NCBI GenBank assembly: GCA_013140695.1
Contig: JABFSI010000103.1
Span: 1 to 64,000 of the forward strand
Direction: 5' to 3'
Source: Sideroxydans sp.
GTDB lineage: Bacteria > Pseudomonadota > Gammaproteobacteria > Burkholderiales > Gallionellaceae
DNA length: 64,000 nt
Shown: piece after piece, positions 20,969 through 38,500 of the stretch
Numbering within the stretch: the first letter of the stretch is position 1
How the letters are laid out: each line of letters starts with the position of its first letter
The notes under the pieces: generated by a model
The model's input: only the letters and a program-made list of their open reading frames with translations
What the model was told of the DNA's origin: nothing
Databases searched by the model: none
Program-made: the position numbers and the translations under genes

Positions 20969-21020
20969 GGGGTATATCTGCTTTGTTTTTTAACTGAAAG
21001 ATTTTGTGGAGGGAACTGAA

Positions 21021-21308: not shown

Positions 21309-21707
21309 ATGATCAACCAACAATTTGCTGAACTGCAGGGCTATCTTCGCGACGAAAAGAAACTTGGAGCAGAGCTGCAGAGCCTTAGTAATGGAGGCTA
21401 CTTAGTCACCATCAAAAACGTTCCAATCAGGAACGGCTGGAACTGCCAGACGGTTGATGTGCTGTTTATGGCACCTCCTGGATACCCGGCGGCCAAGCCG
21501 GACTGTTTCTGGGTAACGCCTCAGCTGAGATTGAACAATGGTGCGCTGCCGCAAGCTGCAAATGATGGCACTGTAATTCCGGGTGACCCCATTCCCGGGC
21601 GACCACTTACATGGTTTTCCTGGCACCTACAAACTTGGGATCCAAGCCGAGATAAACTGGTTACCTTCTATAGCGCTGTCATGAAGAGACTGATTCCGGC
21701 GCGATGA
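21309..21707 (+). CDS. E2-like (UBC-fold) protein of bacterial ubiquitin-like system
   Basis: This 132-residue protein resembles the prokaryotic E2 family E, found beside multiubiquitin and JAB-E1 genes. The E2-like PPGYPAAKPD (56-65) and the later WHLQTWDPSRDKL (105-117) line up with the YPxxPP and W-P landmarks of E2 proteins. The only cysteines are C46 and C66. Neither falls at the usual catalytic position before the W-P motif, so either C66 has taken over or the protein works without a thioester. Its ATG abuts the previous stop, and its stop overlaps the next ATG (ATGA at 21704), which shows tight operon coupling. Confidence 0.8.
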   Translation: MINQQFAELQGYLRDEKKLGAELQSLSNGGYLVTIKNVPIRNGWNCQTVDVLFMAPPGYPAAKPDCFWVTPQLRLNNGALPQAANDGTVIPGDPIPGRPLTWFSWHLQTWDPSRDKLVTFYSAVMKRLIPAR

Positions 21708-23038: not shown

Positions 23039-23039
23039 C

Positions 23040-24701
23040 ATGCCAATCCGTGAATTCTCTTCCACAGGGGTGCCTCGTGCAAAAATAGGCTTCTATAACG
23101 AGCTTCCGCCAATGTCTGATTTGGAACGATTCAAGGAACGCAAGTACGCATGCATACCATGTACAAAGGAAGAGTTACAGGATCCCGCATTTGTCGCGCT
23201 ACTTGACGCGGTAGTATTCTCCCAAAAACCCGATAAGAGAAGCGCACTCGGTCCCATACTACAAGCATCGATCTCTCTGCTTCTGAATAACGACGTACGT
23301 GTATATGTTCGGATTGCTAAAGATCCAGACGGAAGCAATGTGGCACGTAAGCTCGTAATTGATTCACTGCTTGACTTGAACGTTCCATTGGCGAATATTC
23401 GCCGAGATGAATGGGATCGAATACCGGAAAAATGGAGAGAAAGGGAGGGTAGCAACCTCGCACCGTATATCTACATTTTTGATTGCACCGAGAGTTGGGC
23501 TAGCATCGCGCACACAGTCTGCGACCGTCCTGCTGGACACGCGGCGAATACTGAGCTGAGGTTCGATGGACACGATATTCAATCATTAGGGCAGGAAGGC
23601 CATGATGAGCGGCAGATTCTCCTGCAGCGTGCTTTTTCGAATTGCCACACGCTTCATTTAGAAAAAATGACAGATGGGTTGTCTGGTGCGCCTGTTTTCA
23701 AAGCATACGCATCTCAACACCCGGTGGTGGGTGGCTGGGAATATGACTGGCCGTCCCTTCACCTTGTTAAGTTGGGACCGCGCAAGAAAATTGTGGACGA
23801 GTACGACAAGTATATTGGTCACGCTCTCGATTACGTTCCGTTTCACCTTGGCCCCAAGTTGAGACTGGATCGATGTAATCTTGGTTCATCTCAAGGAATC
23901 CTCGTTAGCGATTTCGTCGAAGGCACCGAAGCCATTCGTGACTGCGCGCCTGCAGGAAGGGGGGGGCATGCCATTGCCAATTTATTCGACAAAACCTTGG
24001 GAGCTTGGCGTAAACAAGCAAAAGTTAATTCGTATCGTACCCTCGGGCAATTTTTGGATGGGAAATGGCTGAAAGAGGATAAACAGGAAATTAGCGTTCC
24101 TCCTGAACGTGCGAAAATCGTCAGTCACTTGGGATATGCCCCCGACGTTGCCCCGTTACGAGAAATCTTCAACAGGTGCAGCCAAAACTCGGTCCTGACG
24201 GGCCCGGCTCATGGCGATTTACATGCAACCAATGTTCTTGTCCGTAATGGAGACGCAATAATTATCGACTTCGAAAAAATGGAAGACGAGTTTCCGATGC
24301 TCTACGATCCGGCATCGCTGGAAGGTGGTCTTTTGGTAGAGGGTTTTGGGGGGGACAAACGAAGCACAGAAGATCCGCGCAACTTGCTAGAGTCAATTTC
24401 GCCCCTCTATACTTTGGACATACTAAATAATTTCGTTGTCCCCTGTCACGCCACTAATCCGTCCTCTTGGTTCTACGACTGCGCTGGGCAGATTCGAACA
24501 TTATCACGTCACGCTGAGCTATGTGACGGACAGTACGCCCTTGTGCTAGCTCTTTGCCTAATTCGTAAGGGCTGCAATTCGCATTCATTTGACAATCTTG
24601 CTTATGAGAACCTTCGAGCGATCTCGTTTATCCTTGGACAGAAGATCCTCACACAGGTTGATCAGCATTTCAACCAACAGGCTACAGCAATCAGAATGTA
24701 G
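23040..24701 (+). CDS. Kinase-like (aminoglycoside phosphotransferase fold) protein of the ubiquitin-like operon
   Basis: I do not recognise the 553-residue protein by name. An alpha/beta N-terminal part (about 1-200) is of unknown type. The C-terminal part is kinase-like: a G-loop-type LSGAPVFKA near 213-221, a lysine in HLVKLGP near 244, a helix-C glutamate, the Brenner motif HGDLHATN near 390-397 and IIDFE near 407-411, all typical of APH-fold phosphotransferases. Comparable domains occur in bacterial conflict systems as ternary-complex-associated domains. It starts 1 bp after the JAB-E1 stop, so co-expression is certain. It may phosphorylate a toxin, target or small molecule; the substrate is unknown. 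An alternative start at 22995 would overlap the E1. Confidence 0.72.
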   Translation: MPIREFSSTGVPRAKIGFYNELPPMSDLERFKERKYACIPCTKEELQDPAFVALLDAVVFSQKPDKRSALGPILQASISLLLNNDVRVYVRIAKDPDGSNVARKLVIDSLLDLNVPLANIRRDEWDRIPEKWREREGSNLAPYIYIFDCTESWASIAHTVCDRPAGHAANTELRFDGHDIQSLGQEGHDERQILLQRAFSNCHTLHLEKMTDGLSGAPVFKAYASQHPVVGGWEYDWPSLHLVKLGPRKKIVDEYDKYIGHALDYVPFHLGPKLRLDRCNLGSSQGILVSDFVEGTEAIRDCAPAGRGGHAIANLFDKTLGAWRKQAKVNSYRTLGQFLDGKWLKEDKQEISVPPERAKIVSHLGYAPDVAPLREIFNRCSQNSVLTGPAHGDLHATNVLVRNGDAIIIDFEKMEDEFPMLYDPASLEGGLLVEGFGGDKRSTEDPRNLLESISPLYTLDILNNFVVPCHATNPSSWFYDCAGQIRTLSRHAELCDGQYALVLALCLIRKGCNSHSFDNLAYENLRAISFILGQKILTQVDQHFNQQATAIRM

Positions 24702-24720
24702 GGAGGCCCAAAGCAACCCT

Positions 24721-25248
24721 ATGATCAATCCCAAGCTAACTCTTAAGGCAACTGTCCCGTCTCGCAGTGCTGCAAGCAGCTATTTGAAGAAGCCTGGTGA
24801 TGCGGTTATTGTTGATCGCCAAGGGCCTCGTTGGCTAATTCTTATGTGCCCATGCGGTTGTGGAGAAGAGTTTCCAATCAACCTTGATTCGCGTGCCGGC
24901 CCAGCGTGGAGACTGTATAAACACGAACGAACAGGACTCAGCTTATACCCATCCGTATGGAGGAAAAGTGAGTGTAAAAGTCACTATATCATTTGGCGAA
25001 ACCAGATTTTCTTATTCAATCGATATGAGGAGGATTTTTACGGCAAAACTCGCAAGGATGAGTCGTTGCGATTGACGATAGTTGTTCGTGAGAAATTTCC
25101 AATAAGGGGATACATTTCTTTCTACGATATTGCGGAAATCATAGGCGAAATACCGTGGGATGTATTAATGGCTTGCCGTTGGCTTGTACGAGAAGGATTC
25201 GCAAACGAGGGAATCGGCAAGCTCAAAGGTTCTTTTAAGCGGCGATAA
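24721..25248 (+). CDS. DUF6527-family zinc protein, copy 1
   Basis: The 175-residue protein has the MCPCGCGEEF motif near 42-51, LYPSVWRKSEC near 75-85 and SHYIIW after it, the hallmark of DUF6527 proteins that accompany bacterial ubiquitin-like operons. The cysteines and histidine suggest one zinc site. A C-terminal part (about 100-175) includes a helix-turn-helix-like stretch (YDIAEIIGEIPWDVLMACRW). The start at 24721 follows GGGAGG by 13 bp; longer in-frame starts would overlap the kinase-like gene by more than 100 bp. The function is unknown. Copy 2 follows 18 bp later. Confidence 0.75.
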   Translation: MINPKLTLKATVPSRSAASSYLKKPGDAVIVDRQGPRWLILMCPCGCGEEFPINLDSRAGPAWRLYKHERTGLSLYPSVWRKSECKSHYIIWRNQIFLFNRYEEDFYGKTRKDESLRLTIVVREKFPIRGYISFYDIAEIIGEIPWDVLMACRWLVREGFANEGIGKLKGSFKRR

Positions 25249-25266
25249 ACAAACAAAAGAGGTATC

Positions 25267-25821
25267 GTGAATAAGACACATCACATTAACTTCAAGGGAA
25301 CGATTGATAAGTTTGGAGGCGCGGTTGCGCTAATTAGTACGCCAGGAGACTGCGCCATCGTCAGCAGGGGAGTACCTCGTACGCTCGTAATGATGTGCCC
25401 CGATGGTTGCGGGGAGACAATTGCCGTAAACCTAGATCGCCGTATAGGCAAGGCTTGGCGTAAATACGAACAAAGCAACAAGCTCACAATTTACCCATCG
25501 GTGTGGAGGGATACAGGCTGTCGCGCGCACTTCATCATTTGGAACGACCAAGTACTCTGGTGTGATGTTGAGGATGGGGTGAGAATTGCCCTTGATGAAA
25601 AGTTTGTTGAGACTGTATTCAACAATCTCTCTGACAGCCAATTTATTCATTTCGAAACCATCGCTGAATCGCTCCATGCTATAGCTTGGGACGTGCTTTG
25701 GGCTTGTAATGAGTTAGTTAAACGAAGAATTGCACAGGTTGCTAATCGAACCACATTCAAGAGAATTGGTATTAGATTTTCCGCCATGCCGATCAACGGG
25801 CGGATAGATATTAGTGTATAG
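25267..25821 (+). CDS. DUF6527-family zinc protein, copy 2
   Basis: The 184-residue paralogue of the preceding gene shares its layout: MMCPDGCGETIAVNLD near 43-58, IYPSVWRDTGC near 78-88, HFIIW, and a C-terminal FETIAESLHAIAWDVLWAC segment like that of copy 1. One cysteine of the first cluster is replaced (CPDGCG instead of CPCGCG), so metal binding may differ between copies. The start is GTG, with AGAGG upstream. Tandem divergence suggests they work as a pair or recognise different partners. After it, a 178-bp gap shows no clear terminator. Confidence 0.73.
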   Translation: MNKTHHINFKGTIDKFGGAVALISTPGDCAIVSRGVPRTLVMMCPDGCGETIAVNLDRRIGKAWRKYEQSNKLTIYPSVWRDTGCRAHFIIWNDQVLWCDVEDGVRIALDEKFVETVFNNLSDSQFIHFETIAESLHAIAWDVLWACNELVKRRIAQVANRTTFKRIGIRFSAMPINGRIDISV

Positions 25822-25999: not shown

Positions 26000-26845
26000 T
26001 TGATTACAGCGCTAAAAAAACGAACACTTAACCGTGCGCTCTACACTCGCGATCCCAAGATCGAGGCCAAGCTGGTAGAGCTAGAATTGCTATCGCGGGA
26101 TGATCTCTTTGCACGTTGTTCGATTGCTCGACGCAGTAATTTAGCGTATGTGCCGAACGAATGCGTTCTATATTTTGTGCGCGCGAGCCGGACAGAAAAC
26201 TCTAGTCGCGATTTCGAGCGTTTGTGCAAGATTCTGATGGAGCGTGTTCTGCGAATCCTGCCTAAGCCTGACAACGCTGACGGTTCGACACTGTCGTTTG
26301 CCAAAAGTCAGGTCAGGGAGAAAGCGTTTGACCGGTTTGTTGAGATGCTGATGGAAGACCGCACGGGCTATTCGGAAAAGCTCGATTTTTTTGAGGTGCG
26401 ATTCAACGGTGCTCTCGCCAGCCTTCGGCGTGATGCCCAAGAACAGGTTTGGCGCGAGGAAAACCGTACTGTTGAACTTGAGTCTGATGAAGAAAGTGGG
26501 GAAATTTCCGCCGAGGTTGAGCTCGCGGTTGGCAGCTATGATCCTTTCGATACACGCGAATTTGATGCTGCCGATTACCGGTCTTGCCTAGATGCGGCGA
26601 TTAGTACTCTACCTCTATTACAACGAAGGATAGTCGAAATGATTCGACAGGGAATTCTCATCGACTCCAAAGACGCGGGAGTTGTAACCATCGCAAAGAC
26701 GCTCAATAAATCTGAGAAGACGATAAGAACGCATCGAGACAAGGCCTATGCTGTATTGCGGGCAGCCCTGACCAGGGGGAAAGTATATGACATCGACCAC
26801 TCATCAGCCTCCGCGCGAAGACGTACTGAATGCATTTGCCGTTGA
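26000..26845 (+). CDS. Sigma-70-like factor (region 4 HTH) of cassette B
   Basis: The 281-residue protein ends in a sigma-region-4-like helix-turn-helix: LPLLQRRIVEMIRQG, then IAKTLNKSEKTIRTHRDKAYAVLRAAL (about 206-256). The N-terminal half (1-190) shows helical, charged segments such as FNGALASLRRDAQEQVWREE that could be region 2, but the match is weak. The start is TTG with GGAAGA upstream. It could be an extracytoplasmic-function-type sigma factor or a LuxR-like regulator. The gene overlaps the next one by 59 bp, so they are coupled. It may drive transcription of this cassette. Confidence 0.55.
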   Translation: MITALKKRTLNRALYTRDPKIEAKLVELELLSRDDLFARCSIARRSNLAYVPNECVLYFVRASRTENSSRDFERLCKILMERVLRILPKPDNADGSTLSFAKSQVREKAFDRFVEMLMEDRTGYSEKLDFFEVRFNGALASLRRDAQEQVWREENRTVELESDEESGEISAEVELAVGSYDPFDTREFDAADYRSCLDAAISTLPLLQRRIVEMIRQGILIDSKDAGVVTIAKTLNKSEKTIRTHRDKAYAVLRAALTRGKVYDIDHSSASARRRTECICR

Positions 26846-27368
26846 ACAAGACTTTGGACGTGAAACGCTAGAGCGGTATCTTCGAGACTTTCCTCAGTAC
26901 GCTACAGATATTATCGATCTATCAAGCGAGCTTTCCCGAAGCATTATTGAACAAGAAGGGGAACTATCTGAAAAGGATCAGATGTTGATCAACAAGGCTT
27001 GGACACGTTACCAGAGTGCCATACCAACGGTGACTTTAGACCCTCTTGCCGCATTATCGGTGCCTGAGCTTCGTGAACTTGCGAGTCGCCTTGAAGTGCC
27101 GCGGCAGGTTATAACTGCCTTTCGCGAGCGAAGGGTAATCGTTGATTCGGTACCTCAACGGTTTCTTTCACAGTTTGCCGTCGCCTTGAATAGTACCGTT
27201 GAACGACTAGTGAACGCATTTGCGATGCCCCCCTTACAGGGTTTGACGCGAAGCTATAAGGCTGATGTGAAGCCGCAGGGAGATGCGCCCATCACGTTCG
27301 AGCAACTACTTATGGACGCTGGCGTTTCCGAAGAGAAACGGAATGTGCTGATGGCGGACGACGACTGA
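26787..27368 (+). CDS. HTH-like partner protein of the ImmA-helicase
   Basis: I do not recognise this 193-residue protein. The middle part (about 88-135, VPELRELASRLEVPRQVITAFRERR, RFLSQFAVALN) looks like an XRE-type helix-turn-helix, and the flanks are acidic and helical. XRE-type repressors are the usual substrates and partners of ImmA/IrrE proteases, and such a protease starts 1 bp after this gene ends. It overlaps the sigma-like gene upstream. By inference it is a repressor or anti-sigma factor cleaved by the next gene's product. No enzymatic motif is seen. Confidence 0.5.
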   Translation: MTSTTHQPPREDVLNAFAVEQDFGRETLERYLRDFPQYATDIIDLSSELSRSIIEQEGELSEKDQMLINKAWTRYQSAIPTVTLDPLAALSVPELRELASRLEVPRQVITAFRERRVIVDSVPQRFLSQFAVALNSTVERLVNAFAMPPLQGLTRSYKADVKPQGDAPITFEQLLMDAGVSEEKRNVLMADDD

Positions 27369-27369
27369 A

Positions 27370-30300
27370 ATGGATGGGGTCGAGCTTGCCCGGCAGGCTG
27401 CGGCCTCACTTCATGCTCTGGCCGTCGCCAGGGGGTTAGACCCTTGGCAACCTTATGACTTTGTTGTAGCTGAAGCAAAGCGACGGGAGATCGATGTTGA
27501 ACCAACCGCATGTGGTGCTGCAGTGCTCAATGGCGGTCGCGCGACGTTCGTTTCTGATGAACAACTTATCCTCCATGAAAATGTGGGGACGCAATTCGAT
27601 CAAGCGTTTCTGGTCGCTCATGAAATTGGTCACGTTGAACTCGGAGATGACACTGGTAGCGGTCTGGCGCTCGAAATTAACCCGGTGCGTTCGGCGGAAT
27701 TCTCACCGGTTGGCATTGACAGGGTCGTAGACTACGGCCCACGGCAGCGACGCGAAGTTCAGATGGATCTTTTTGCGCGGGAATTCCTCCTCCCGCGTCC
27801 CGTGGTTCGCAAACTCCACTTAGATGATGGACTGACCGTTTCGGCCATTGCGAAACGGCTCGGTGCCCCATTCGATGTCGTGGCACAGCAGTTGCTCGAC
27901 GCGATTTTGTTACCACCGGTTTCGCTAACAACGAAAGAAGATGTTGAGCGTCCGCTCAACCGCTTGCAGGAAGAAGCAGCTAATCATCGGGGTAATGCTT
28001 ATCTGCTTGAAGCTGGTCCTGGGACCGGCAAGACACAGACCCTGACAGCTCGAGTTGACAGACTCTTGGCTGACCATGTCGATCCACGTCGAATTCTACT
28101 TCTAACTTTCTCGAACAAGGCTGCAGGAGAGATGGCAGAGAGAATTGCGCTCAAACATAAGGACGCTGCCGCAGCAATGTGGATCGGTACATTTCATGCA
28201 TTTGGGCTCGACGTAATTCGACGTTTTCATGCTGAACTGGGACTGCCAAAGGATCCGCGCATGATGGATCGGACTGATGCGGTGGAACTACTAGAACAGG
28301 AATTTCCGCGACTGGGTTTTGTTCACTATCGCAACCTTTATGATCCAACGCAGATAATCAGCGATATGCTAGCGGCAGTCTCGCGCGCTAAGGACGAGGT
28401 GATTGACGAAAAGAAGTATGCTGAACTAGCCAATCTCATGTTCAGAAAATCCGTCACTTCCGAGGATCGCGAGATGGCGGAGCGGGCCCTTGAGGTGGCG
28501 CGGTTCTACGATGCATATGAGACATTGAAACGGAAAGCGCACAGCGTCGATTTCGGTGATTTGGTATCCTTGCCAGTGCGGTTATTGGAATCTGATGCCG
28601 CCATCCGAGAGCATTTCCAGAATCAGTACGATCATGTATTGGTAGACGAATACCAGGACGTTAATCGAAGCAGTGTCCGTCTTCTCGAAGCATTGAGGCC
28701 TTCTGGTAGCAATCTCTGGGCTGTCGGTGATGCCAAGCAATCAATCTACCGGTTTCGCGGTGCGTCGTCATTTAACATGGCTCGATTTGGGACTGAGGAT
28801 TTCGCCGGCGGCATTCGTGGCAGATTGAAGCGGAATTATCGATCAGTTCGTGAGGTGGTGGACGCCTTCTCGTCATTTGCAGTTCGCATGAAAACCGGGG
28901 ATGCCGATAGCCGCCTGGATGCGGATCGAGGGAGCAGCAATCAGCCGCCAGAATTTCGAACGGTGAATAGAGCTGAGGAGCAGACAGTTGTGCTTGCCGA
29001 CACCATTGAGGAAATGCATCGTGCCGGCCACCATTACCGTGATCAGGCCGTACTGTGTACCGGTAACGAGAAACTCTCAATCTTGGGACAAGATTTGGAA
29101 CGGTTGGGGATTCCCGTACTCTTCTTAGGTAGCCTGTTTGAACGTCCAGAGGTCAAGGATCTACTTGCGCTGTTATCTATTCTGACAGATCGCCGAGCAA
29201 TGGGCCTCGTTCGGGTCGCCTGCTGGCCAGAGTTCAAGATGCCGATAACCGACGTTGCGGTGGTGATGGATTACCTCCGTAAGAATCAGGACGCTCCTGA
29301 CTTGTGGATCCGTAATCCTAACATCATCGTGCAGATGTCTGGACAAGGGCAAGTTGCCTTGAATGCGCTGGCGGAAGCGCTGGATGGGTTTGATCAGCGT
29401 GATTCGCCCTGGACGGTGTTGGCGACGATTTTGCTTGATCGGACCCGTATCGCAGCCAAAATTGCAGCCTCATCTGACATTGTCGACCGGACGCGCTGTA
29501 TTGCTATCTGGCAATTGATGAACTTTATACGCGTCCAGCCCCCCGCCCAAGGCCAGCCTATCGTTCGCCTTCTGGAACGCGTTCGCAGGCTCGTGCGTTT
29601 GGGGGATGACCGGGAGTTACGGCAGCTGCCGGCAGCAGCACAAGGCATTGATGCGGTACGTTTAATGACAATTCATGGGGCGAAGGGGCTGGAGTTTAAG
29701 GTTGTGCATGTGCCTGGTATGAACGCGGATACCTTGCCACGAACCCCGTCGGCGCCGCCGTGTCCTCCGCCGGACGGCATGGTGGAAGGAGGAGAAGGCA
29801 ATGCACTGGAGGTTTTCCGCGCAGGTCATGCAGAAGAGCAAGAATGCCTATTTTACGTGGCGCTGTCGCGATCACGTGATCGGCTGTTCCTCTACGCACC
29901 AACGCAAAAATCCAACGGCCATAACCGCCCCCTTTCGTCTTTCTTGGAACGGTTAGGGGCGGGCACAGTACGGCGACTAGTAAGTCCCTCGCGGACTCTT
30001 CCAATATCGCCGGACGCTGCCGACATCGAGCTCGTCATCGATGAGGGAGTAAAGTTTAGTGGGTCACAGATCGCTCTCTACGAGTCTTGTCCACGACGCT
30101 TTTTCTACACTCACATTCTGCAAATTGGTGGGCGACGGACGGTAACAGCATTCATGCAGATGCATGAGGCGATCCGAACTGTCTTCCAGACTGTAATTGC
30201 TGGAAGCGAACCAATCACAAGGGACTCTGATCTGGAAGGGAAGATAGATTGTGCCCTGACCGAGAACGGACTAGCTGAGCATGGATACGTGAGCGAGTAC

Positions 30301-30768
30301 CGAGCGTTGGCTTTGATGATGGTCCGCTACTTTATCTCCGTTCGTGAAGGGCATACCCCTGAAATGCCAACCACTTTGAGCCTGACCATTGGTGAAGAGC
30401 AAATCATCGTTCGGCCTGACGATGTGCTGGTGCGGCCGGATGGAAGCCGTACGCTTCGTCGTGTCCAGACAGGCCATCAGAGGTCAGGAGAAAGCAAAGA
30501 TGTTGGCGCGGCCGCCTTCATGCTGGCAGCCCAACAGGCATTTCCGGATGCTACTGTTGAGTTGGTCCACCTGTCGGATCAGACGGTACAGCAGATTTCC
30601 CTTTCCGATAGAGAGCTGCAAACCAGGCGGGAGAGGCTTATTGGCTTCCTAAAGAGCATCCGAGCAGGGCGTTATCCTGGAGAACCGTCATCGCGTACGT
30701 GTCCGCGCTGCCCAGCCTTTTTCGTCTGCGGACCCACGCCACACGGCAGTCTGCAAAAAAAACCTTAA
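27370..30768 (+). CDS. ImmA/IrrE protease - UvrD helicase - Fe-S nuclease-like fusion
   Basis: Three modules are seen in 1132 residues. The N-terminal ImmA/IrrE metalloprotease domain (1-180) has HEIGH at 84-88 and a FAREFLLP helix at about 135-142. A UvrD/Rep superfamily 1 helicase follows: Walker A GPGTGKT at 216-222, DEYQD near 426-430, GDAKQSIYRFRGA, HGAKGLEFK near 768 and ALSRSRDRL near 831. The C-terminus resembles AddB/Cas4-type nuclease domains, with an iron-sulphur-like set of cysteines (one in YESCPRRFF near 906; three in CPRCPAFFVC near 1110). The PD-(D/E)XK motif looks broken: where DYKTG is usual, this has RRVQTGH. It may sense damaged or foreign DNA and proteolyse a regulator. 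Confidence 0.88.
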   Translation: MDGVELARQAAASLHALAVARGLDPWQPYDFVVAEAKRREIDVEPTACGAAVLNGGRATFVSDEQLILHENVGTQFDQAFLVAHEIGHVELGDDTGSGLALEINPVRSAEFSPVGIDRVVDYGPRQRREVQMDLFAREFLLPRPVVRKLHLDDGLTVSAIAKRLGAPFDVVAQQLLDAILLPPVSLTTKEDVERPLNRLQEEAANHRGNAYLLEAGPGTGKTQTLTARVDRLLADHVDPRRILLLTFSNKAAGEMAERIALKHKDAAAAMWIGTFHAFGLDVIRRFHAELGLPKDPRMMDRTDAVELLEQEFPRLGFVHYRNLYDPTQIISDMLAAVSRAKDEVIDEKKYAELANLMFRKSVTSEDREMAERALEVARFYDAYETLKRKAHSVDFGDLVSLPVRLLESDAAIREHFQNQYDHVLVDEYQDVNRSSVRLLEALRPSGSNLWAVGDAKQSIYRFRGASSFNMARFGTEDFAGGIRGRLKRNYRSVREVVDAFSSFAVRMKTGDADSRLDADRGSSNQPPEFRTVNRAEEQTVVLADTIEEMHRAGHHYRDQAVLCTGNEKLSILGQDLERLGIPVLFLGSLFERPEVKDLLALLSILTDRRAMGLVRVACWPEFKMPITDVAVVMDYLRKNQDAPDLWIRNPNIIVQMSGQGQVALNALAEALDGFDQRDSPWTVLATILLDRTRIAAKIAASSDIVDRTRCIAIWQLMNFIRVQPPAQGQPIVRLLERVRRLVRLGDDRELRQLPAAAQGIDAVRLMTIHGAKGLEFKVVHVPGMNADTLPRTPSAPPCPPPDGMVEGGEGNALEVFRAGHAEEQECLFYVALSRSRDRLFLYAPTQKSNGHNRPLSSFLERLGAGTVRRLVSPSRTLPISPDAADIELVIDEGVKFSGSQIALYESCPRRFFYTHILQIGGRRTVTAFMQMHEAIRTVFQTVIAGSEPITRDSDLEGKIDCALTENGLAEHGYVSEYRALALMMVRYFISVREGHTPEMPTTLSLTIGEEQIIVRPDDVLVRPDGSRTLRRVQTGHQRSGESKDVGAAAFMLAAQQAFPDATVELVHLSDQTVQQISLSDRELQTRRERLIGFLKSIRAGRYPGEPSSRTCPRCPAFFVCGPTPHGSLQKKP

Positions 30769-30813
30769 AATATTTACCGGTCGTCTCTTGTCGTTCCGAT
30801 TAAAGGTATAGAG

Positions 30814-30828
30814 CCTGACATAGTCAGG
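30814..30828. promoter_or_regulatory. Palindrome upstream of the triple ubiquitin-like gene
   Basis: CCTGAC-ATA-GTCAGG is a 6-bp-arm palindrome 24 bp before the next ATG, in the only sizeable gap (84 bp) of cassette B. It could be an operator or a small hairpin in the leader. No convincing -35/-10 pair is seen. Confidence 0.35.
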
Positions 30829-30852
30829 TCAAACCTAAAGGAAACTACGACG

Positions 30853-31611
30853 ATGAATACCGATAAACTTCTTGAATACGACGACTTAAGCGAAGCTTTG
30901 CGCGAGGGTCGTGCATTACGGCCAGCCAGAGGTTACCGCATCCTCTATGCGCAGGGTGATCTCAACTTTCGCAGCCTCGATGTGCCCGATCCCGTGCCGT
31001 TGGGACACCAGATACTCACGAGCGCTGGGGTCAACCCAAGTGATGGATACAGCCTCTTTGCCATCCTACCAGCAGGCGACTTCGAGGATGTGCGGCTGGA
31101 CGAGCCGTTTGACCTCCGCGAGCGCGGTGCGGAGCGTTTTATCGCCTTTCAGACCGACCGCGACTTCAAGCTTACGTTGAACGAAAAACAGCTTAAGTGG
31201 GGCAAGCCTACTATTAGTGGCGCAGATATCTATACCCTTGCGGACATTGGCGAGGACGAAGCGGTTTTTCTCGAAGTCAACGGGGGCGAAGACCGGCTGA
31301 TCGATTACGACGAATTAATCGACCTGACAACGTCAGGAATCGAACACTTCATAACAGCACCAAAGCCAGCTCTCACGTTCGAGTTCACGGTGAACTCGCG
31401 ACCTCACGTTGTGAGTGATCGGCGGGTGACCTTCGAACAGGTGGTGCAGTTGGCGTTCCCAGGTAGCCAGTCCGTGCCGAATGTAGCCTTCTCAATGACC
31501 TACCGCCACGCAGCCTCGAAGCCTCACGCTGGCGAGCTCGGCGCTGGAGGTGTTGTCGAAGTCAAAAATAAAGGAACCGTATTCAATGTCACAAAAACCA
31601 TTCAATCATAG
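30853..31611 (+). CDS. Triple ubiquitin-like (multiubiquitin) protein
   Basis: The 252-residue protein contains three tandem beta-grasp domains of the multiubiquitin type: about 25-95 (YRILYAQGDLNFRSLDVP to RFIAF), about 96-170 (DFKLTLNEKQLKWGKP to HFITAP) and about 172-245 (FEFTVNSRPHVVSDRRVTF to GTVFNVT). The ends of the domains have no GG, so it may be used whole, as a polymer-like unit, and not cut into monomers. The E1 gene begins inside its last 26 bases. AAGGA precedes the start. It belongs to the multiubiquitin-E1-DUF6527 triad known from many bacteria, whose function is not established. Confidence 0.85.
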   Translation: MNTDKLLEYDDLSEALREGRALRPARGYRILYAQGDLNFRSLDVPDPVPLGHQILTSAGVNPSDGYSLFAILPAGDFEDVRLDEPFDLRERGAERFIAFQTDRDFKLTLNEKQLKWGKPTISGADIYTLADIGEDEAVFLEVNGGEDRLIDYDELIDLTTSGIEHFITAPKPALTFEFTVNSRPHVVSDRRVTFEQVVQLAFPGSQSVPNVAFSMTYRHAASKPHAGELGAGGVVEVKNKGTVFNVTKTIQS

Positions 31612-32761
31612 TCCTGACCTGAAGCGCCTTCGCGAGGAAGGCTACTTTGTGCAGATCAGAGGAGGTTTCCTCATTATGCGCGACGTGCCTTACGTCAATG
31701 CTCAGCGGCAGGTTCGAACGGGGGCGCTTATCTCCAGTCTTACGCTCGCTGGAGATATCACTCGTGCTCCTGATACACATGTCGTCTACTTTGACGGCGA
31801 CTACCCGTGTGGTGCCGATGGAGTTCCGATCCAGCAGATTTCACACCAAAGTGGCAACATCAACCTTGGTAATGGTGTGACTGCGAAGCACGGGTTCTCT
31901 AGCAAGCCTGAAACTGGGTATGTGGACTACTTCCACAAAATGACTACCTATGCTGCGATTCTGTCTGGGCCCGCGAATTCGCTGAAGCCCGGAGTCAGTC
32001 CGCGAACCTTCCGCCTACCAGAGGATGAGGAAGACAGTATTTTCAACTATACAGAAACCGCATCCGATCGCGTGGGTATCGGAGCTCTGACCGAACGCTT
32101 GGTAGCAGATCGAGTGGCGATCTTCGGCCTTGGGGGCACAGGATCGTATGTGCTCGATTTTGTGGCCAAGACACCAGTTCGAGAGATCCGGCTGTTCGAT
32201 GGTGACGAGTTCTTGCAACACAACGCCTTCCGCGCGCCTGGCGCTCCATCCATCGACGAGCTGCGTGAGGCTCCGAAGAAAGTTGACTATCTGAAAGGCA
32301 TCTATTCGAGGATGCACCGTGGAATCTTTGCCCATGCAGTCCCAATCGATGCAGGCAACATCCAGTTGATGGACGGCATTACATTTGCATTCATCTGCAT
32401 GGATGCAGGCGAAGCCAAACACCTTGTCGTCCAGAAGCTAGAGGCGCTCGGTGTGCCCTTCGTCGATGTTGGCATGGGTCTCGAATTAGTCGAGGGTTCG
32501 CTTGGTGGTATCTTGAGGGTCACCGCGAGCACTCCGCAGAAACGCGATCATATCCATCAGGGGCGTATCTCCTTTGCAGGCGGCGGTGAAGACGACCTAT
32601 ATGCCTCCAATATTCAGGTCGCCGACCTGAATGCACTTAACGCGGTAATGGCTGTCATCAAGTGGAAGAAACTCAGGGGCTTCTACCGGGACATCGAGCG
32701 AGAGCACCACAGTACCTACACGACCGACGGCAACATGTTGTTGAATGGTGATTTTGAATGA
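31586..32761 (+). CDS. E1-like ThiF adenylyltransferase with DUF6791-type N-terminus
   Basis: The 391-residue E1-like enzyme has an N-terminal domain (about 1-150) of the DUF6791 type typical for multiubiquitin operons, followed by a ThiF fold with GLGGTGS near 180-186, LFDGDEF near 199-205 and the FICMDAGEAKHLV segment that offers the most likely reactive cysteine. There is no JAB domain and no separate E2 gene in this cassette, unlike cassette A. The start (ATG 31586) lies within the ubiquitin-like gene, 26 bp before its end, and the stop overlaps the next gene by 4 bp. It should activate the triple ubiquitin-like protein. Confidence 0.87.
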   Translation: MSQKPFNHSPDLKRLREEGYFVQIRGGFLIMRDVPYVNAQRQVRTGALISSLTLAGDITRAPDTHVVYFDGDYPCGADGVPIQQISHQSGNINLGNGVTAKHGFSSKPETGYVDYFHKMTTYAAILSGPANSLKPGVSPRTFRLPEDEEDSIFNYTETASDRVGIGALTERLVADRVAIFGLGGTGSYVLDFVAKTPVREIRLFDGDEFLQHNAFRAPGAPSIDELREAPKKVDYLKGIYSRMHRGIFAHAVPIDAGNIQLMDGITFAFICMDAGEAKHLVVQKLEALGVPFVDVGMGLELVEGSLGGILRVTASTPQKRDHIHQGRISFAGGGEDDLYASNIQVADLNALNAVMAVIKWKKLRGFYRDIEREHHSTYTTDGNMLLNGDFE

Positions 32762-33210
32762 TGCGACACTCTCATCTCGAACACAGGTTCGTGCAGAATA
32801 TACCGACGCGTCTGGAGCCGGGGGTCCTCTATGTTTCAATGGAGTACGGTACGGCCATCCACAGTTGCTGTTGCGGTTGTGGCGAAGAAGTGGTGACGCC
32901 ATTCACCCCAACCGACTGGCGAATGACATTCGATGGGGAGACAATTTCGTTATGGCCGTCAGTAGGCAATTGGAACTTGGCGTGCCGTTCGCACTACGTG
33001 ATCGAGCGGGGGCGTGTAATTGAAGCGGGTTCTTGGAGCAGCAAGCAAATTGCAGCTGGGGTTCGAAGAGAAAAGGCGGCGAAGGCTAGCTACTATGGCT
33101 CATCCAATCGGCCTAAGACGGTTGAGTCCACCCAAATGCAGTCCTCACCAAGTAAGAAGGGCACGGGTGTCTGGTTTCTGGTTATTCGTTGGATGCTTGG
33201 ACGTGAGTAG
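32758..33210 (+). CDS. DUF6527-family zinc protein, copy 3
   Basis: The 150-residue protein is the clearest DUF6527 member in the window: CCCGCGEEVVTPF near 37-49, SLWPSVGNWNLACRSHYVI near 67-85. Cysteines C37-C41 region and the later C-SH pair are likely zinc ligands. The C-terminal tail (about 110-150) is basic and unlike copies 1 and 2, which are longer. It overlaps the E1 stop by 4 bp (ATGA). Its presence in both ubiquitin-like cassettes argues for a shared role, perhaps ligase-like or adaptor; that is inference. Confidence 0.83.
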   Translation: MMRHSHLEHRFVQNIPTRLEPGVLYVSMEYGTAIHSCCCGCGEEVVTPFTPTDWRMTFDGETISLWPSVGNWNLACRSHYVIERGRVIEAGSWSSKQIAAGVRREKAAKASYYGSSNRPKTVESTQMQSSPSKKGTGVWFLVIRWMLGRE

Positions 33211-33320: not shown

Positions 33321-33617
33321 ATGAGTACTAAAGCCGATAGGACCGTGATTATCACAGCAAGTGGCATTAAGTTGTTGCAAGCAAAATTTCTCAAGCAGAC
33401 AGAACATTTGGTCTTGTGGCATTTAGTGGCTTCGCTTCCGGTCACGGGAGATGTTGTATCTCACGCCGCACTTGGTCTTGAACTTGCAATTGCTCCATCT
33501 CATATCAGTGCGTCCGTTAAACACTTGCGGGAGTTAGGTTTCCTGGCTCGTGGTGAAAAAATTGGGCACTCGTATTACTACAAACTTAACCCGGCTTTTT
33601 TCAGAATCATCTCATAG
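33321..33617 (+). CDS. Winged-helix regulator of the condensin-like operon
   Basis: The 98-residue protein is almost all one winged helix-turn-helix domain (about 20-92: HLVLWHLVASLP, LAIAPSHISASVKHLRELGFL, YYYKLNP), similar to MarR/ArsR-type small regulators. It ends 1 bp before the MksF-like start and so belongs to the same transcript. Direct repeats with a palindrome just upstream are its likely binding site. No cysteine pair or other sensing motif is seen. It may hold the cassette off in the absence of a plasmid or phage. Confidence 0.7.
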   Translation: MSTKADRTVIITASGIKLLQAKFLKQTEHLVLWHLVASLPVTGDVVSHAALGLELAIAPSHISASVKHLRELGFLARGEKIGHSYYYKLNPAFFRIIS

Positions 33618-33618
33618 C

Positions 33619-34968
33619 ATGTCTGACCGCGATCACGGACCTAGTTCGATACTTTCAGTTGTCCAGACAATACTGGAAGAAGAAAGGTCACTAGATTTAA
33701 CGTCGCGTGACATAGCACTTCTGGTGCTAATACGACATGAACTCAACTCGGGTGATGATTCTGAGCTGTCCATCCCCTATTCGACAATACAAGCGTTGCA
33801 CAGCCGTCTTGATTCAATTGAGGCTGGCGGATCACAGAACCCAGAGCGCCGACTGACCGAAAGCTTAGCGCGTCTTATTAAGACAGAATGTGTGACCAAG
33901 GCGGACATGACCCGAATTCGGTTGACCGTAGACACCGAATACCAGCTCACCACAATCGGCGAATCGGTTGCCGAATGGCATTTGATGCAATCCGAGTTCT
34001 CAGGGGAACCGCTGACGGCGATTTTTCGATCATTCATCAGCCAGCTCATGCTCATCGCAGGAGATGCCGAGAAAGCGCAATCCCAAGAGGACTGGCAATC
34101 CAATGTGGTGCAGCAGATGCAATATGTGTTGAAGGGAATGCTGGTCAGTATTCAGAGACACCAGAAAGAATTGGACCGCCAGCACGCAGCATTAAGGGAC
34201 TTTGTACCCACGCTGTTGATACAGGCTAGCGAAGACTCGATAGGGCAATGCGAATCGCAACTATCCAAAGTGATCAAAACGATTGATGATCTTCAAGAAG
34301 TTGTATTGGCATCAACCAACCGGGCGCAGGCTCTGATCGATCAGATCGGCAACATAGCGCATTCCAGCGAGAGTACGAATACACCCGAGTCTTTAAGGGG
34401 CGTCGAAGCCATCTGCGATGAGTTTCAGCGCAGGCTAGTGAATATCTCTCTTTGGACGATACAACGTGCTACCGATTGGATAGACCATCACAACGTTGTG
34501 CACAACCATCTTCGAACGGTCGTTCGAATCGACCGCCAGCGTCGCATCTCAGATGCGTTGAAACGATCTATGGCAAGTGTGCCGAGGTGGACTTTGGAGG
34601 TTGCATCGGAGCCGTGTTTCATGCGGATGCGAGAAGACATTCAGCGCGATCACACCCCGAAAAAAGCACCCCGTGTCCGAAAAGATGCATCCAGCAGAAA
34701 CCGCGAATTCACAGATGAGCTTCCGGACAAAGTGCATGAAATTCTGCTTGCGCACCTCCAGAATGAATTGAGCGAAGGAAGCGCACGCGCATCGAGTATT
34801 TTAAGCAAGGTCGCTACGGAAACAATGGACGAGGTAGGTGTTCTATCTCAATTCTCATGGCTAATTGGTGAAATGACGCAAGCTGGGCGGATGGAAGATG
34901 GGATACGTCATTGGACTCGTACAACATCATGCATTGAAATCGAAGAATTTAAGGTGAACGCAAAATGA
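33619..34968 (+). CDS. MukF/MksF-like kleisin (Wadjet JetA counterpart)
   Basis: The 449-residue protein has the layout of MukF/MksF/JetA kleisins: a winged-helix-like N-terminus (about 25-130, with IPYSTIQALHSRLDSI and YQLTTIGESVAEW), a long helical middle (about 130-330) and a C-terminal part that should touch the SMC head. Start ATG 33619 is 1 bp after the regulator's stop. It overlaps the next gene by 4 bp. In MksBEFG and Wadjet, this subunit closes the SMC ring used for loop extrusion. Identity rests on gene order and overall pattern more than on strong motifs. Confidence 0.72.
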   Translation: MSDRDHGPSSILSVVQTILEEERSLDLTSRDIALLVLIRHELNSGDDSELSIPYSTIQALHSRLDSIEAGGSQNPERRLTESLARLIKTECVTKADMTRIRLTVDTEYQLTTIGESVAEWHLMQSEFSGEPLTAIFRSFISQLMLIAGDAEKAQSQEDWQSNVVQQMQYVLKGMLVSIQRHQKELDRQHAALRDFVPTLLIQASEDSIGQCESQLSKVIKTIDDLQEVVLASTNRAQALIDQIGNIAHSSESTNTPESLRGVEAICDEFQRRLVNISLWTIQRATDWIDHHNVVHNHLRTVVRIDRQRRISDALKRSMASVPRWTLEVASEPCFMRMREDIQRDHTPKKAPRVRKDASSRNREFTDELPDKVHEILLAHLQNELSEGSARASSILSKVATETMDEVGVLSQFSWLIGEMTQAGRMEDGIRHWTRTTSCIEIEEFKVNAK

Positions 34969-35588
34969 CTATCTTTAAAGATGATGAGTTTGTCGAGATT
35001 GATTTGCTTCTGCGTCGAGGAGCCCATATCAATCGCGCCAACATGGCTCTATACGATTACATGTGTCACCACCTAACTGAACTGAAAGATTTTTACTTCC
35101 GGTACGGGTGTTCGCTTTACCAGCATCCTGATGGGTTTTTTTACGCAACGGTCAAGGGGGGGAAGATTCAAACACGGCTGCTGCCAAAATCATGTGTTCA
35201 TCTAGGTATGTTCCTCGCACTTAAGGCTAGAGATCCAGAGATTACCAGGTCATCCGGACGAATATCCGTCAATCAGTTGCTTCAGGATATCGAGACATCC
35301 GTTCCTCGCGACATCCTTCAGCAAGTCTACGCACCTAAGCGCCGGGAGGCGGTTGTTGATGAGTGCATAAATGATGAACTCAACAAGTCGCTAAGAACGC
35401 TGGCAGAGCTGGGATTTATTGAATTGACGGATCTTGCGATACGACCATTGGAGGCAATCAACAGGTTTGCCGAGTTGGCTCGTAGTAATAATGAACCCAG
35501 CGATGAAAACCGATTGAATCTGATTGTGACGCGCGGTGTCGTTTTCCTCGAAGACGGCGAAGAGGTTGAAGGAGAGGCAGATGAGTAA
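34965..35588 (+). CDS. MukE/MksE-like KITE subunit (Wadjet JetB counterpart)
   Basis: The 207-residue protein fits the DUF4194/MukE type: two winged-helix domains (about 25-85, KDFYFRYGCSLYQHPDGFFYA; and about 120-185, LRTLAELGFIELTDLAIRP), and an acidic C-terminus. In the condensin-like complexes it binds the kleisin and DNA. It overlaps both neighbours (4 bp upstream, 8 bp downstream), so all four subunits are produced together. Length is normal for MksE/JetB. Confidence 0.82.
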   Translation: MTIFKDDEFVEIDLLLRRGAHINRANMALYDYMCHHLTELKDFYFRYGCSLYQHPDGFFYATVKGGKIQTRLLPKSCVHLGMFLALKARDPEITRSSGRISVNQLLQDIETSVPRDILQQVYAPKRREAVVDECINDELNKSLRTLAELGFIELTDLAIRPLEAINRFAELARSNNEPSDENRLNLIVTRGVVFLEDGEEVEGEADE

Positions 35589-38500
35589 AGCAAAAATTGA
35601 CCGTGTCGCATATGTCGGCTGGCGTGGGATAGTTGGTTGCGAAGTGCTTGAGCTCGATGAAGAGTTGACCGCACTGGTTGGACCAACAGGCGCTGGGAAA
35701 TCGACACTGGTCATGTGCATGGATTACGCCATTCTGCCAGACAGACGAACGATGGAGATACGCCCGATATCAGATGTTCAGGATATTCACAACGCGGGCA
35801 CTGACACGCTGGCTGCTCGCATCGACCCGGCCTATGGCTATGCCTACGTGGTGCTGGGGATCACCATGATAAATGGGAAAAAATTGATTGCAGGCATCCA
35901 CGTCTCGACAGTCGACGGGCATGCGCACTTTACCCGTTGGCTGATACGCGACGTGCCAGAAAATTCTTTGCTTCAGGATTTATTGAGCATACAAGATGGA
36001 GAGAGCGAGTATTACCCTGACTTTCCAGAACTAAAGCGCCATTTGGCCGGCAATGGAGTCTATATATCCATCTGTGGCACGATTGGCGAATACTGCCAAG
36101 CGTTATACGAAGCCGGAGTCTTGCCTTCGTCTATGACCTCTGGAACGGATAGGACACTATATGCAAAACTCATTGAGAGTACGTTCAAAGGTGGTATTTC
36201 AGAAGAGATCGCCACTAACCTAAAAGGCTATCTGCTGCCAGTACAATCTCAGGTGCAAGAACTGGTGCGTGGCTTGCAGGAATGTACAAACGATGTAATT
36301 AAAACCCGCAGTGCCGTAGCTGACGCGAAAAACCAGCTGAATATGCTGAAATCGACCTATGGCGTGGGGAAAGATGCAGTGATGACGGCATTGAAGGGAA
36401 TTGAAGCCGACGTTAGCAAAACCGAGCGTGAAATTGAGGGGGCAACTACATTTGTTTCGACTAAGCATGAAGAGTTAATAAGGTTGGATGCAAGCATACC
36501 GCGGCTCGTCGAACAGATTGAGGTGGCTGAACAGTTAAAGAAGTCAGCGATGGAAAATGGCCTTCATGAACTGCAGTTGCTAGGTGACCAGAAGGAGACA
36601 TTGTCTGGCACGCGTAACACACGCAAGACCACAATGGACGAAACGGCCAAAAGGCTTAAGGAGTTCAATGCTGGGTGCGCGCTTTGGCGCAAGGTAGCAG
36701 GAGCGTTGGAAAACGATGGCTACGATGATGTTAAGGCGGCGCAAGAGAAAAAAATAGAAGGGCTCAATCGGAGCATATACGGGATAGAAAAGGAGATGCA
36801 CACGCTGCAAGATGAGGATGAGCGTCTGTCTATGGATCGCTCGTCTTCGACTTCAGAGCATTTGGCCGAACTGCTCGGCGGACAAACGCTGGAGCAATCG
36901 CTCGGACGTGTGAGCGAAAAAGAATCTGTGGCGCTGGAAATGACGCTGGGCGGGCTGACAGAAGGCGTTGTCGGTGTGGATTTTGGTTCACTGGCTAGCA
37001 TTCCTGCGACTGACGATATTCCAAATCTATTTTGGTTGGGAGAGAAGACACCCAGCCCGAGGCCTATCAGGGAGTCGGGTGACTGGTATTTGTTGGCAGC
37101 TGCTGACGGATACATCGTGTCGAGCAAAAAAAGAGCTTCTGTGTTCGGCAACGATGCGCGGAAGTTGCGTCGGGTCGCAATCGCGGAGGAGTTGGAAATA
37201 CTATCCGGAAGACTTGGCATCCAGATTATCGCCAGGGACAAGGAACAAGAAAAACTGACTGAGTTCCTGAAAAATGATGGACTAATCAAGATATTTCTTG
37301 AAAATAGACAGGACGTATTTGCGATTGATCGGGCTGCCAAAAATGCAAAAAAGGAGTGGGAGCTAGCGGACGCAGCACTCAAAACAGCCGAGATAAAATA
37401 TCTCACATTGCAAGCAGATATAACTAAGATTGGTGAACCGCACGAGCGAATCCTATCTGGGTTACGCACAGACCTGAGTTCACAACAGGGTAAACGTCCT
37501 TTCCTTGTCAAAGAAATCGAGGATTCGGAAACCAGCTTATTGATGTTGAATAAACGAATGGACGCTTGCCGTCTCGAAGAAACATTTGCCAAGGAAATAT
37601 TGGGATGCGAATTCGCCCGCTTTTGGGCTACGGCAAGTGAAAGTGATTTTCCGACGCAAAATGTGGAGGGACTTCAGACAAGACGGATGTTGGAGGTTAG
37701 CAAAGCGCTGGGCGAAGAGAATCAAAATCGATTTGAGTCGTTTCGGGACTTTGATGCAGCCAATCGTGTCAGCATCGTGCGCATGTGGCCAGACCTGATG
37801 AAAGTGATCCAGGAAACCATTAGCATCGACATCGTAGACAAGGATGGTGAAGACTTGATTGAAGCCATGCAGATAAAACGGGCGCATCTCGATAGCGACC
37901 TTGCGCTGCAAGAGAACGAACTCGATGTGAAGGCGAATAGTATTTCTTTGAGCATCAACACCGCTGTCCGAACCCAAAGAAACAAGATCGACAAGTTGAG
38001 CAAACTGGGTCACACCATTTGCTTTGGAAATGTGAACGGAATCCGGCTTCAACTGGTGCCGCGTACAAATATGCTTGAGGTTTTGGAACAGTTCGCCGAT
38101 CAGCTGTCTCTACTCAGTAAGGAAAAGCCTGTCGACCAGGTGCTGAAGGATTTCTTTGATGCGGCCAGTTCCGTTAGGATCAGAATGGATGGGGCGAGTT
38201 TGCTGGATTATCGGGAATACGTGGATTTGGTGATTGAGACCAAACGCGAGGAAGGCGACTGGGAACTGGCTTCGTCGTTGTCTGGTGGCGAATCCATTGG
38301 GTGCGGGTTGGCAATCGCACTGATGCTGACGCGCTCTATTGCGAATCGGGGTGAGGCTGGCGGGGAGGGTGTCAAAACGGAAAATATCCGCCCCCTTTAT
38401 GGAGTGGATGAGATCAGTCGACTTGACGCTGCAGGTCAAAAAGTCTTGGTAGATTTCGCCAAACGTGAAAGGTTTCAGTTGCTGTTTGCAGCGCCAGAAC

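Follow-up and report, generated by a model that had tools for sequence, protein, structure and literature searches.

A predicted stress-gated sigma-factor switch with an ImmA-helicase fusion before a Bub/Bil-type ubiquitin-like operon in Sideroxydans sp.

Among bacterial ubiquitin-like operons, the Bub type employs oxyester conjugation chemistry and reportedly encodes a dedicated protease with a Ser-His dyad, and the Bil type includes a JAB deconjugase and an E2. Bub operons are often accompanied by helix-turn-helix (HTH) plus peptidase or WYL controllers; according to the excerpted text of PMC13373217, 219 of 544 lie next to CapW or CapH+CapP and 59 next to CapK+CapS, and phage protection by Bub is not demonstrated there. 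In 2016, 70% of PF14452 proteins were described as adjacent to HTH+DUF955 (ImmA) loci (excerpts of PMC4963859). CapP and PprI are activated by single-stranded DNA (excerpts of PMC13373217 and PMC10904395), and in the CRISPR systems CalpL/CalpT/CalpS and CASP, proteases act on the inhibitor of an extracytoplasmic function (ECF) sigma factor (excerpts of PMC11417357 and PMC10028731). Here we describe a six-gene locus at 26000-33210 of a 64,000-nucleotide stretch of DNA from Sideroxydans sp. (contig JABFSI010000103.1 of assembly GCA_013140695.1, forward strand, positions 1 to 64,000; the window). Its sequence makes it probable, though far from assured, that a stress-gated sigma switch here precedes a Bub/Bil-type ubiquitin-like operon. 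We refer to the sigma-like, HTH and ImmA-helicase genes as the trio, to the Multi_ubiq, DUF6791-ThiF and DUF6527 genes as the triad, and to the promoter-shaped sequence TTACCGG-N16-CGATT as the motif. The features are as follows.

26000..26845, + strand: ECF-type sigma-like factor, 281 amino acids (sub-threshold sigma70-ECF match; sigma fold in the model)
26575..26602, + strand: predicted promoter copy TTACCGG-N16-CGATT embedded in the sigma gene, an exact copy in its own genome
26787..27368, + strand: 193-amino-acid protein with an N-terminal helical part, an XRE-type HTH and a C-terminal tail with invariant P163
27370..30768, + strand: fusion of ImmA/IrrE (M78) protease, UvrD helicase and PD-(D/E)XK-like domain, 1132 amino acids (Pfam)
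27478..27894, + strand: Peptidase_M78 domain of the fusion, residues 37-175
30055..30729, + strand: PD-(D/E)XK-like domain of the fusion, residues 896-1120, predicted to be catalytically dead, with a Cys cluster
30774..30801, + strand: predicted promoter TTACCGG-N16-CGATT in the 84-bp gap, before the ubiquitin-like operon
30813..30829, + strand: leader stem-loop in the interval from promoter to ribosome-binding site, six pairs, each with double-sided changes in part of the sequences
30853..31611, + strand: triple multi-ubiquitin-domain protein (Multi_ubiq, PF14452; Pfam E = 8.6e-62, three stretches)
31586..32761, + strand: DUF6791-ThiF E1-like adenylyltransferase (Pfam, NF004802; frame open from GTG at 31550)
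32758..33210, + strand: DUF6527 protein with an invariant Cys, Ser68 and His79 (Pfam E = 1e-24)

All six open reading frames lie on the + strand, and the junctions in gene order are a 59-nt overlap, a 1-bp gap, the 84-bp gap, an overlap and a 4-nt overlap. Like Bub and Bil operons, the locus encodes a Multi_ubiq protein and a ThiF E1-like enzyme. It differs from Bub in its controllers (sigma-like factor, HTH protein and ImmA-helicase fusion), a set that the excerpts of PMC13373217 do not name, and from Bil in that the triad has no recognisable JAB or E2. With CalpL/CalpT/CalpS and Csx29/Csx30/CASP-sigma, as portrayed in the excerpts of PMC11417357 and PMC10028731, it has in common a protease, a candidate sigma inhibitor (so called by analogy) and an ECF-type sigma factor, and with CASP-sigma also the motif copies in its own locus (same excerpts of PMC10028731); unlike them it has no CRISPR effector, its protease family and trigger domain are others, and its target would be a ubiquitin-like operon. 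CapK+CapS and CapW/BrxR are likewise DNA-damage controllers before immune operons including Bub (excerpts of PMC13373217), but these are kinase/STAS or WYL proteins with no protease and no sigma factor. We file the unit as one that joins ubiquitin-like operons with protease-gated sigma switches; neither the six-gene unit nor the motif was among the literature matches listed, a scope outside which the main Bub papers lie.

The six genes recur as one unit. When genomes were scanned with the fusion protein and the best 80 of 509 relatives kept (74 distinct helicases), all six genes were found together, by custom hidden Markov models (HMMs), in 70 of the 80 loci, in several phyla; the sigma HMM matched in 76. 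The remaining ten comprise five loci truncated by contig ends (L041, L043, L068, L085 and L095, with L068 also having a changed gene at the sigma position), L066, where the helicase frame stops early and the triad is absent from the 3.3 kb that remain, L102, where the Multi_ubiq gene is present and E1 and DUF6527 matches are absent, the Robbsia-like locus L057, and L084 and L088, which carry other operons. Seventeen plasmid neighbourhoods were covered as well. All six genes were found on the eight plasmids picked via the fusion protein (Agrobacterium, Cereibacter, Leptolyngbya, Klebsiella, two Acinetobacter, Robbsia and Mesorhizobium), seven being complete by HMM and Robbsia by position, since its sigma-position gene is 21% identical and unmatched by the sigma HMM; the Robbsia triad is divergent from its trio. 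Three of the four picked via the sigma gene also held the six genes (L014 and L015 with the helicase in two frames), the fourth, L017, carrying the trio with another operon, and one of the five picked via the Multi_ubiq gene (L018) had the trio.

Because the 80 loci are the closest relatives, unselected genome samples were drawn too. The HTH family occurred in 6 of 398 phylum genomes and 2 of 369 class genomes, seven being distinct (the window's genome included), and all seven also have a Multi_ubiq gene, on the contig of the HTH gene and about 4 kb from it. The Multi_ubiq family itself was found in 13 of the 398 and 11 of the 369 genomes, which indicates that it often lives without the trio. 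These results bear out the initial annotation, which had described six same-direction genes with overlaps or a 1-bp gap plus one 84-bp gap and had read them as one system: every reading frame and junction is present, and the two halves, for which it had considered that they might never be together elsewhere, co-occur in the 70 loci and the seven genomes. In G733, a genome of the same genus, neither the HTH nor the Multi_ubiq family is present at E <= 1e-5; the presence of the unit therefore varies within the genus. The six-gene unit appears to be mobile.

The predicted promoter was examined at loci with sigma, helicase and Multi_ubiq matches (plasmid, genome and window) by scanning the 130 nt that precede the start codon of Multi_ubiq, with spacings of 14-20 allowed, in 76 distinct gaps no shorter than 25 nt; L053 was not among these, its called start overlapping the site. 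The motif was present in 75 of the 76 gaps (62 exact, 11 with one mismatch and 2 with two), and although 14-20 was permitted its spacing was 16 in all 75. Among 3800 mononucleotide shuffles, none gave an exact motif and six gave one with one mismatch. The sites are always in the sense of the operon and end 47-53 nt upstream of the start codon in 64 of the 75 gaps; the sole miss, L091, has an exact copy directly behind the helicase, farther from the called start. The window's 2.5-Mb genome contains exactly two exact motifs, at 30774-30801 and 26575-26602, and no match to a reversed control; 19 of 20 other host genomes had a motif match, with 32 of their 40 exact copies being operon sites. That the sigma-like factor drives the ubiquitin-like operon from this promoter is thus well supported as a prediction, and there is strong reason to believe that it is the protein that recognises the motif; the initial annotation's proposal that this factor switches on the operon is very probably right, given a predicted promoter in two copies. 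Further exact motifs, beyond the two usual places, lie at L089 15960 (+) and L102 8340 (-) and may mark additional target genes.

The second copy is contained in the coding sequence of the sigma gene, at the place that encodes YRxxLxxAI and some 185 nt upstream of the HTH gene, which the protease-helicase gene follows. When this protein pattern was used to locate it, 68 of the 76 distinct sigma genes showed no more than one mismatch; the other eight had 2-7 mismatches and four more loci gave no candidate, and the pattern partly picked the wrong place, L071 and L086 actually having exact embedded copies. Codon usage in 61 sigma genes was compared over the full set of 59 codon columns that are conserved and degenerate, and Y193, R194, A200 and I201 were each the most codon-constrained of their own degeneracy class: TAC in 53/53 at Y193 (next best 45/57), CGG in 51/57 at R194 (44/57), GCG in 58/59 at A200 (30/56) and ATT in 58/59 at I201 (41/58). 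As these four motif columns top their classes, the DNA word itself is conserved. In L014, L062, L065, L073, L077 and L092 the gap reads TTTCCGG or ATTCCGG, and the embedded site of all six encodes Phe; in the Acinetobacter loci L010 and L012 TTACCGA stands at both sites. The two sites differ in L025, L040 and L056. The loci with matched changes are related and do not make an independent count.

With at most one mismatch at N16 the motif was absent from Multi_ubiq loci lacking the trio, on plasmids (0 of 4) and in genomes (0 of 9, these being 9 of the 16 such genomes in both samples); trio-less L022 has a one-mismatch N17 copy 8 kb from the operon. In six held-out trio genomes, none of which had been used to find the motif, the gap copy was exact in four (L107, L108, L109 and L111) and, read by eye, TTTCCGG-N15-CGATT in L110, and the embedded copy was exact in three and had one mismatch in two. 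In the clade with a changed sigma-position gene (L011, L057 and L068) TTACCGG is absent, and in all three loci both operons, the ubiquitin-like and the sigma-side one, are preceded by TGGCAAG-N13-AGAGC or a close variant (ACAGC, GGAGT). This pattern was framed after the sequences had been read, and each locus contains TGGCAAG by itself 4-8 times. The sites are the following.

L011, 8732/8768: TGGCAAG-N13-AGAGC-like sites facing both operons
L057, 2433/2469: TGGCAAG-N13-AGAGC-like sites facing both operons
L068, 443/479: TGGCAAG-N13-AGAGC-like sites facing both operons

Alternatively, the motif might be the binding site of some other protein, such as the HTH protein or a recombinase, instead of a sigma promoter. 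A conserved XRE protein is indeed encoded alongside, and the promoter reading comes from sequence; against this alternative, the two boxes are non-palindromic, keep a fixed 16-bp spacing, always point in the operon sense and mostly stop at the set distance from the start codon given above, and another two-box motif replaces them where the sigma-position gene has changed. We therefore regard a site for another protein as very improbable.

The sigma-like protein has sub-threshold matches to Sigma70_r4_2 (Pfam, 6.2e-4) and sigma70-ECF (4.6e-6), and Sigma70_r4_2 is matched at E <= 0.01 in 41 of 61 members of the sigma alignment, the window's included. Its AF2 model (mean predicted local distance difference test, pLDDT, 88.6) models as a sigma factor fold: the 50 VIA-align 2 matches listed are by title sigma factors or sigma-holding complexes, the best (SigmaE/RseA, Z 9.3) having a root-mean-square deviation of 20.8 with the two domains placed differently, and SigR region 4 alone superposes at 1.4 A over 64 residues. 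For the 193-amino-acid protein the only Pfam match, YfcL, is sub-threshold and probably due to chance. In its model (pLDDT 84.2; predicted template modelling score 0.53) residues 85-149 form an XRE-type HTH, with the CapH N-domain (7t5u, Z 5.5) and DdrO (6rnz, Z 5.3) among many tied matches and 3kxa best (6.3); since all lie below Z 8, the fold class is supported and a special kinship to CapH is not. Foldseek gave no match at E <= 0.001 for either model, so these fold calls rest on VIA-align 2, and the HTH fold search barely covered the N-terminal 80 residues. By analogy, and with moderate confidence, we take this protein as a candidate sigma inhibitor and protease substrate. The relatives of the sigma-like protein end about 20 amino acids earlier than the window's, whose gene extends some 20 codons beyond the usual end (26783-26845), giving the 59-nt overlap with the HTH gene instead of the usual one of about 4 nt.

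Several observations weigh against a sigma switch of this kind. The sequences behind the motif counts are related to one another, and the gaps that served to define the motif are also those where it was counted. Eight exact off-operon copies were found in the 20 host genomes, compared with one for the reversed control, leaving room for further targets; equal base frequencies would predict about 15 exact motifs in 127 Mb, so eight is below that expectation, and since every one of the eight falls within an open frame 100 codons long or longer, none can clearly be called a promoter. A motif upstream of the sigma gene itself was considered as general autoregulation and rejected: among 77 distinct upstream regions three had one mismatch and seven had two, roughly the shuffle level except in a few clades, so that the motif precedes a minority of sigma genes only and sigma autoregulation is not the rule. 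The divergent held-out genome L112 has no gap motif within two mismatches at N16 and lacks the embedded copy. No sigma family was matched by the sigma-position genes of L011 and L068, that of L057 reached 0.045 (NCBIfam), and no Pfam sigma match was obtained for any of the three. Finally, the N-terminal helical part of the HTH protein has no family match, for which reason the term anti-sigma is applied by analogy.

The XRE fold raises a more serious alternative, in which the HTH protein acts like CapH on DNA: it would repress the sigma gene, and its cleavage by ImmA would allow the sigma factor to be made and the operon to be switched on. CapH+CapP and DdrO+IrrE/PprI do share with this locus an XRE HTH protein, at the level of fold class, and an M78 metalloprotease with HExxH; the fold resembles CapH and DdrO, HTH+ImmA pairs stand beside the related operons L019, L021 and L113, and the 219 Bub operons next to CapW or CapH+CapP (excerpts of PMC13373217) fit the same picture. 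However, the protease here carries UvrD and a degenerate PD-(D/E)XK domain in the same chain, and the locus includes an ECF-type sigma factor, whereas CapH+CapP is a two-gene module with none; in addition the HTH protein bears a further helical region at its N terminus and matches no CapH-like protein significantly by profile, and no conserved operator was found before the sigma genes. The mean best dyad score in 75 upstream regions was 6.44, compared with 6.06 (sd 1.07) in shuffles, five per region, and the elements that are conserved resemble promoters rather than operators. We consider a CapH-like repressor rather unlikely, while giving it more weight than any other alternative. As a separate observation, a perfect 14-bp inverted repeat lies about 50 nt before the sigma gene of L045, the strongest of the 75 regions, none of the others scoring above 10.5.

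The fusion protein matches Peptidase_M78 (ImmA/IrrE; 1.1e-12), UvrD helicase (6e-65) and PD-(D/E)XK (2.9e-13) in Pfam. The ImmA-helicase fusion of the initial annotation is thus borne out in both its domains, the third having escaped it, as had the embedded motif copy and the structured leader. In 86 distinct sequences HExxH is kept in 85, the third ligand E129 in 86, and Walker A with DExQD in 86. The nuclease-like domain keeps its first Asp in 84, a TG pair in 83 and 86, and its four Cys in 83-85 of the sequences; its (D/E)xK position is mostly R-x-R/Q/K, with Arg for the acid in 66 of 86 and the catalytic Lys in 10. From these residues the nuclease-like core looks inactive and the ImmA and helicase sites intact. 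We take the nuclease-like end, for which phmmer found no solved relatives, to be a putative structural and perhaps iron-sulfur-bearing DNA-binding part, by analogy with AddB/RecB-like nucleases. No CRISPR effector matched above cut-off in any of the six genes, and a sub-threshold Cas4 match (E 0.0025) fell in the nuclease-like domain.

Could the fusion be an effector in its own right, unwinding or cutting invader DNA, with the ubiquitin-like operon as a co-expressed second effector? Its helicase motifs are intact, and PADLOC RTasHel (2.6e-75) and GajB (2.7e-64) match the helicase part, but the (D/E)xK element is degenerate and the motor is joined to an intact ImmA site; we judge an effector role distinctly unlikely. 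The PADLOC labels E1-E2, GajB and RTasHel are domain-level matches and were not used for naming. The sensor role that we prefer for the helicase part, with DNA as the trigger, is held with moderate confidence by analogy.

Each of the two halves also occurs without the other, which makes them two linked modules. The trio stands before another operon in L017 (10001-20786; DUF7665, a sub-threshold JAB match, a metallophosphatase and an annotated AAA ATPase), L084 (metallophosphatase and SMC/SbcC-like) and L088 (weak Multi_ubiq, an E1-like match and metallophosphatase), and despite the non-triad operon an exact motif lies behind the helicase in each (L017 14810, L084 13429, L088 7543). The triad occurs without the trio in L019-L021. 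Among Multi_ubiq loci lacking the trio, HTH+ImmA pairs adjoin L019, L021 and L113, a hypothetical gene and a winged HTH gene neighbour L022, and L020 has no obvious controller among its neighbours. Such HTH+DUF955 pairs beside PF14452 genes were read in 2016 as toxin-antitoxin units (excerpts of PMC4963859), and the HTH/ImmA pair might accordingly do nothing but prevent loss of the ubiquitin cassette. A pure stabiliser, however, needs no motif of exact spacing that links the trio with the triad as well as with other operons, and proteolysis activated by single-stranded DNA is reported for ImmA relatives (excerpts of PMC10904395), so a toxin-antitoxin unit has little chance of being the explanation. 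We read the trio as a portable controller that has been swapped before other operons, for example metallophosphatase/SbcC-like pairs, each with the same promoter. More broadly, a DNA-sensing motor within a protease would license a private sigma factor, and two promoters with a structured leader would make a self-resetting gate carried by the portable trio; to this joint reading we give an even chance.

The triad proteins place the operon near both described types. Among solved chains the Multi_ubiq protein is closest to the multi-ubiquitin protein 9cd2 (3.6e-55), followed by 9d5b (1.1e-40) and BilA 8u38 (1.5e-40, profile positions 30-188), and it matches BubA weakly (1.1e-4). The E1-like protein, whose relatives align from the ATG at 31586 within the frame 31550-32761, matches DUF6791 (9.7e-61), ThiF (2.8e-9) and NF004802 (738 bits), and BubCD at 3.2e-8 in its ThiF part, profile positions 168-299, only. 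No E2 or JAB match was obtained in the three triad proteins (Pfam, E <= 0.1), and the idea of DUF6791 as an E2 found no support, since the DUF6791-ThiF alignment did not align to the Prok-E2_E protein of Synechocystis (probability 0.2%). S68 and H79 of DUF6527 are invariant in 14 sequences, and no solved relatives of it were found. Given the closeness to BilA and 9cd2, the weak Bub matches and the lack of E2 and JAB matches, we call the operon Bub/Bil-type and claim membership of neither.

Between the promoter and the start codon the transcript is predicted to fold. The 67 distinct leaders have a mean folding z of -2.86 relative to mononucleotide shuffles. In an alignment of 40 leaders, hand-picked for diversity from 62, the 6-bp stem pairs in 81.3% of cells compared with 66.4% with partners shuffled (0 of 500 shuffles as high), and slid versions of the stem drop to 30-47% paired. 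All six stem pairs show double-sided changes, a measure that taken alone is within the shuffles (121 of 500), and the covariation term from RNAalifold is small (-0.28). For many alphaproteobacterial leaders the ribosome-binding site is itself paired in the predicted fold, which is not clear in the window. A leader hairpin next to the ribosome-binding site is a possible second control. A G-rich/C-rich leader hairpin lies before the Multi_ubiq gene in L011, L057 and L068.

The sequence of events that we propose would run as follows. The ECF-type sigma factor would normally be held inactive by the XRE-HTH protein. The ImmA-helicase fusion would engage aberrant DNA (single strands, ends) arising from damage or phage, the fusion placing the sensor where single strands arise, and the activated metalloprotease would cut the HTH protein and free the sigma factor; that the HTH protein restrains the sigma factor and is cut by ImmA, as the initial annotation also envisaged, is proposed by analogy with moderate confidence. 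The freed factor would fire the promoter in the 84-bp gap and turn on the Multi_ubiq/E1-like/DUF6527 operon, whose transcript begins with the predicted hairpin at the ribosome-binding site, a possible second control, and would also fire the embedded promoter, yielding more HTH protein and protease-helicase and thereby feedback and reset. We propose an anti-phage role with the same moderate confidence.

Two further systems flank the locus. Directly upstream, a second ubiquitin-like operon (20060-25821, + strand) encodes a WYL regulator, a single Multi_ubiq protein (21021-21308, 3.7e-10), Prok-E2_E (21309-21707, 2.9e-14), a ThiF E1 with a weak JAB (21704-23038), a TCAD9/APH-like protein (22995-24701) and two DUF6527 proteins, so that a WYL-linked and a sigma-linked ubiquitin-like system stand side by side in the window. 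Directly downstream lies a Wadjet-like set (33550-39563, + strand) with MukF-, MksE- and MukB-like genes and JetD.

Bub operons are reported behind DNA-damage controllers (excerpts of PMC13373217). The controller described here can be tested at base resolution, as it comprises one motif at two sites, one sigma factor, a single candidate inhibitor and a single protease whose active site is clear. If the proposed mechanism is true, a single mobile unit would link helicase-based DNA sensing, proteolysis, the release of a sigma factor and ubiquitin-like tagging, and the trio would be a portable switch whose promoter is nearly private.

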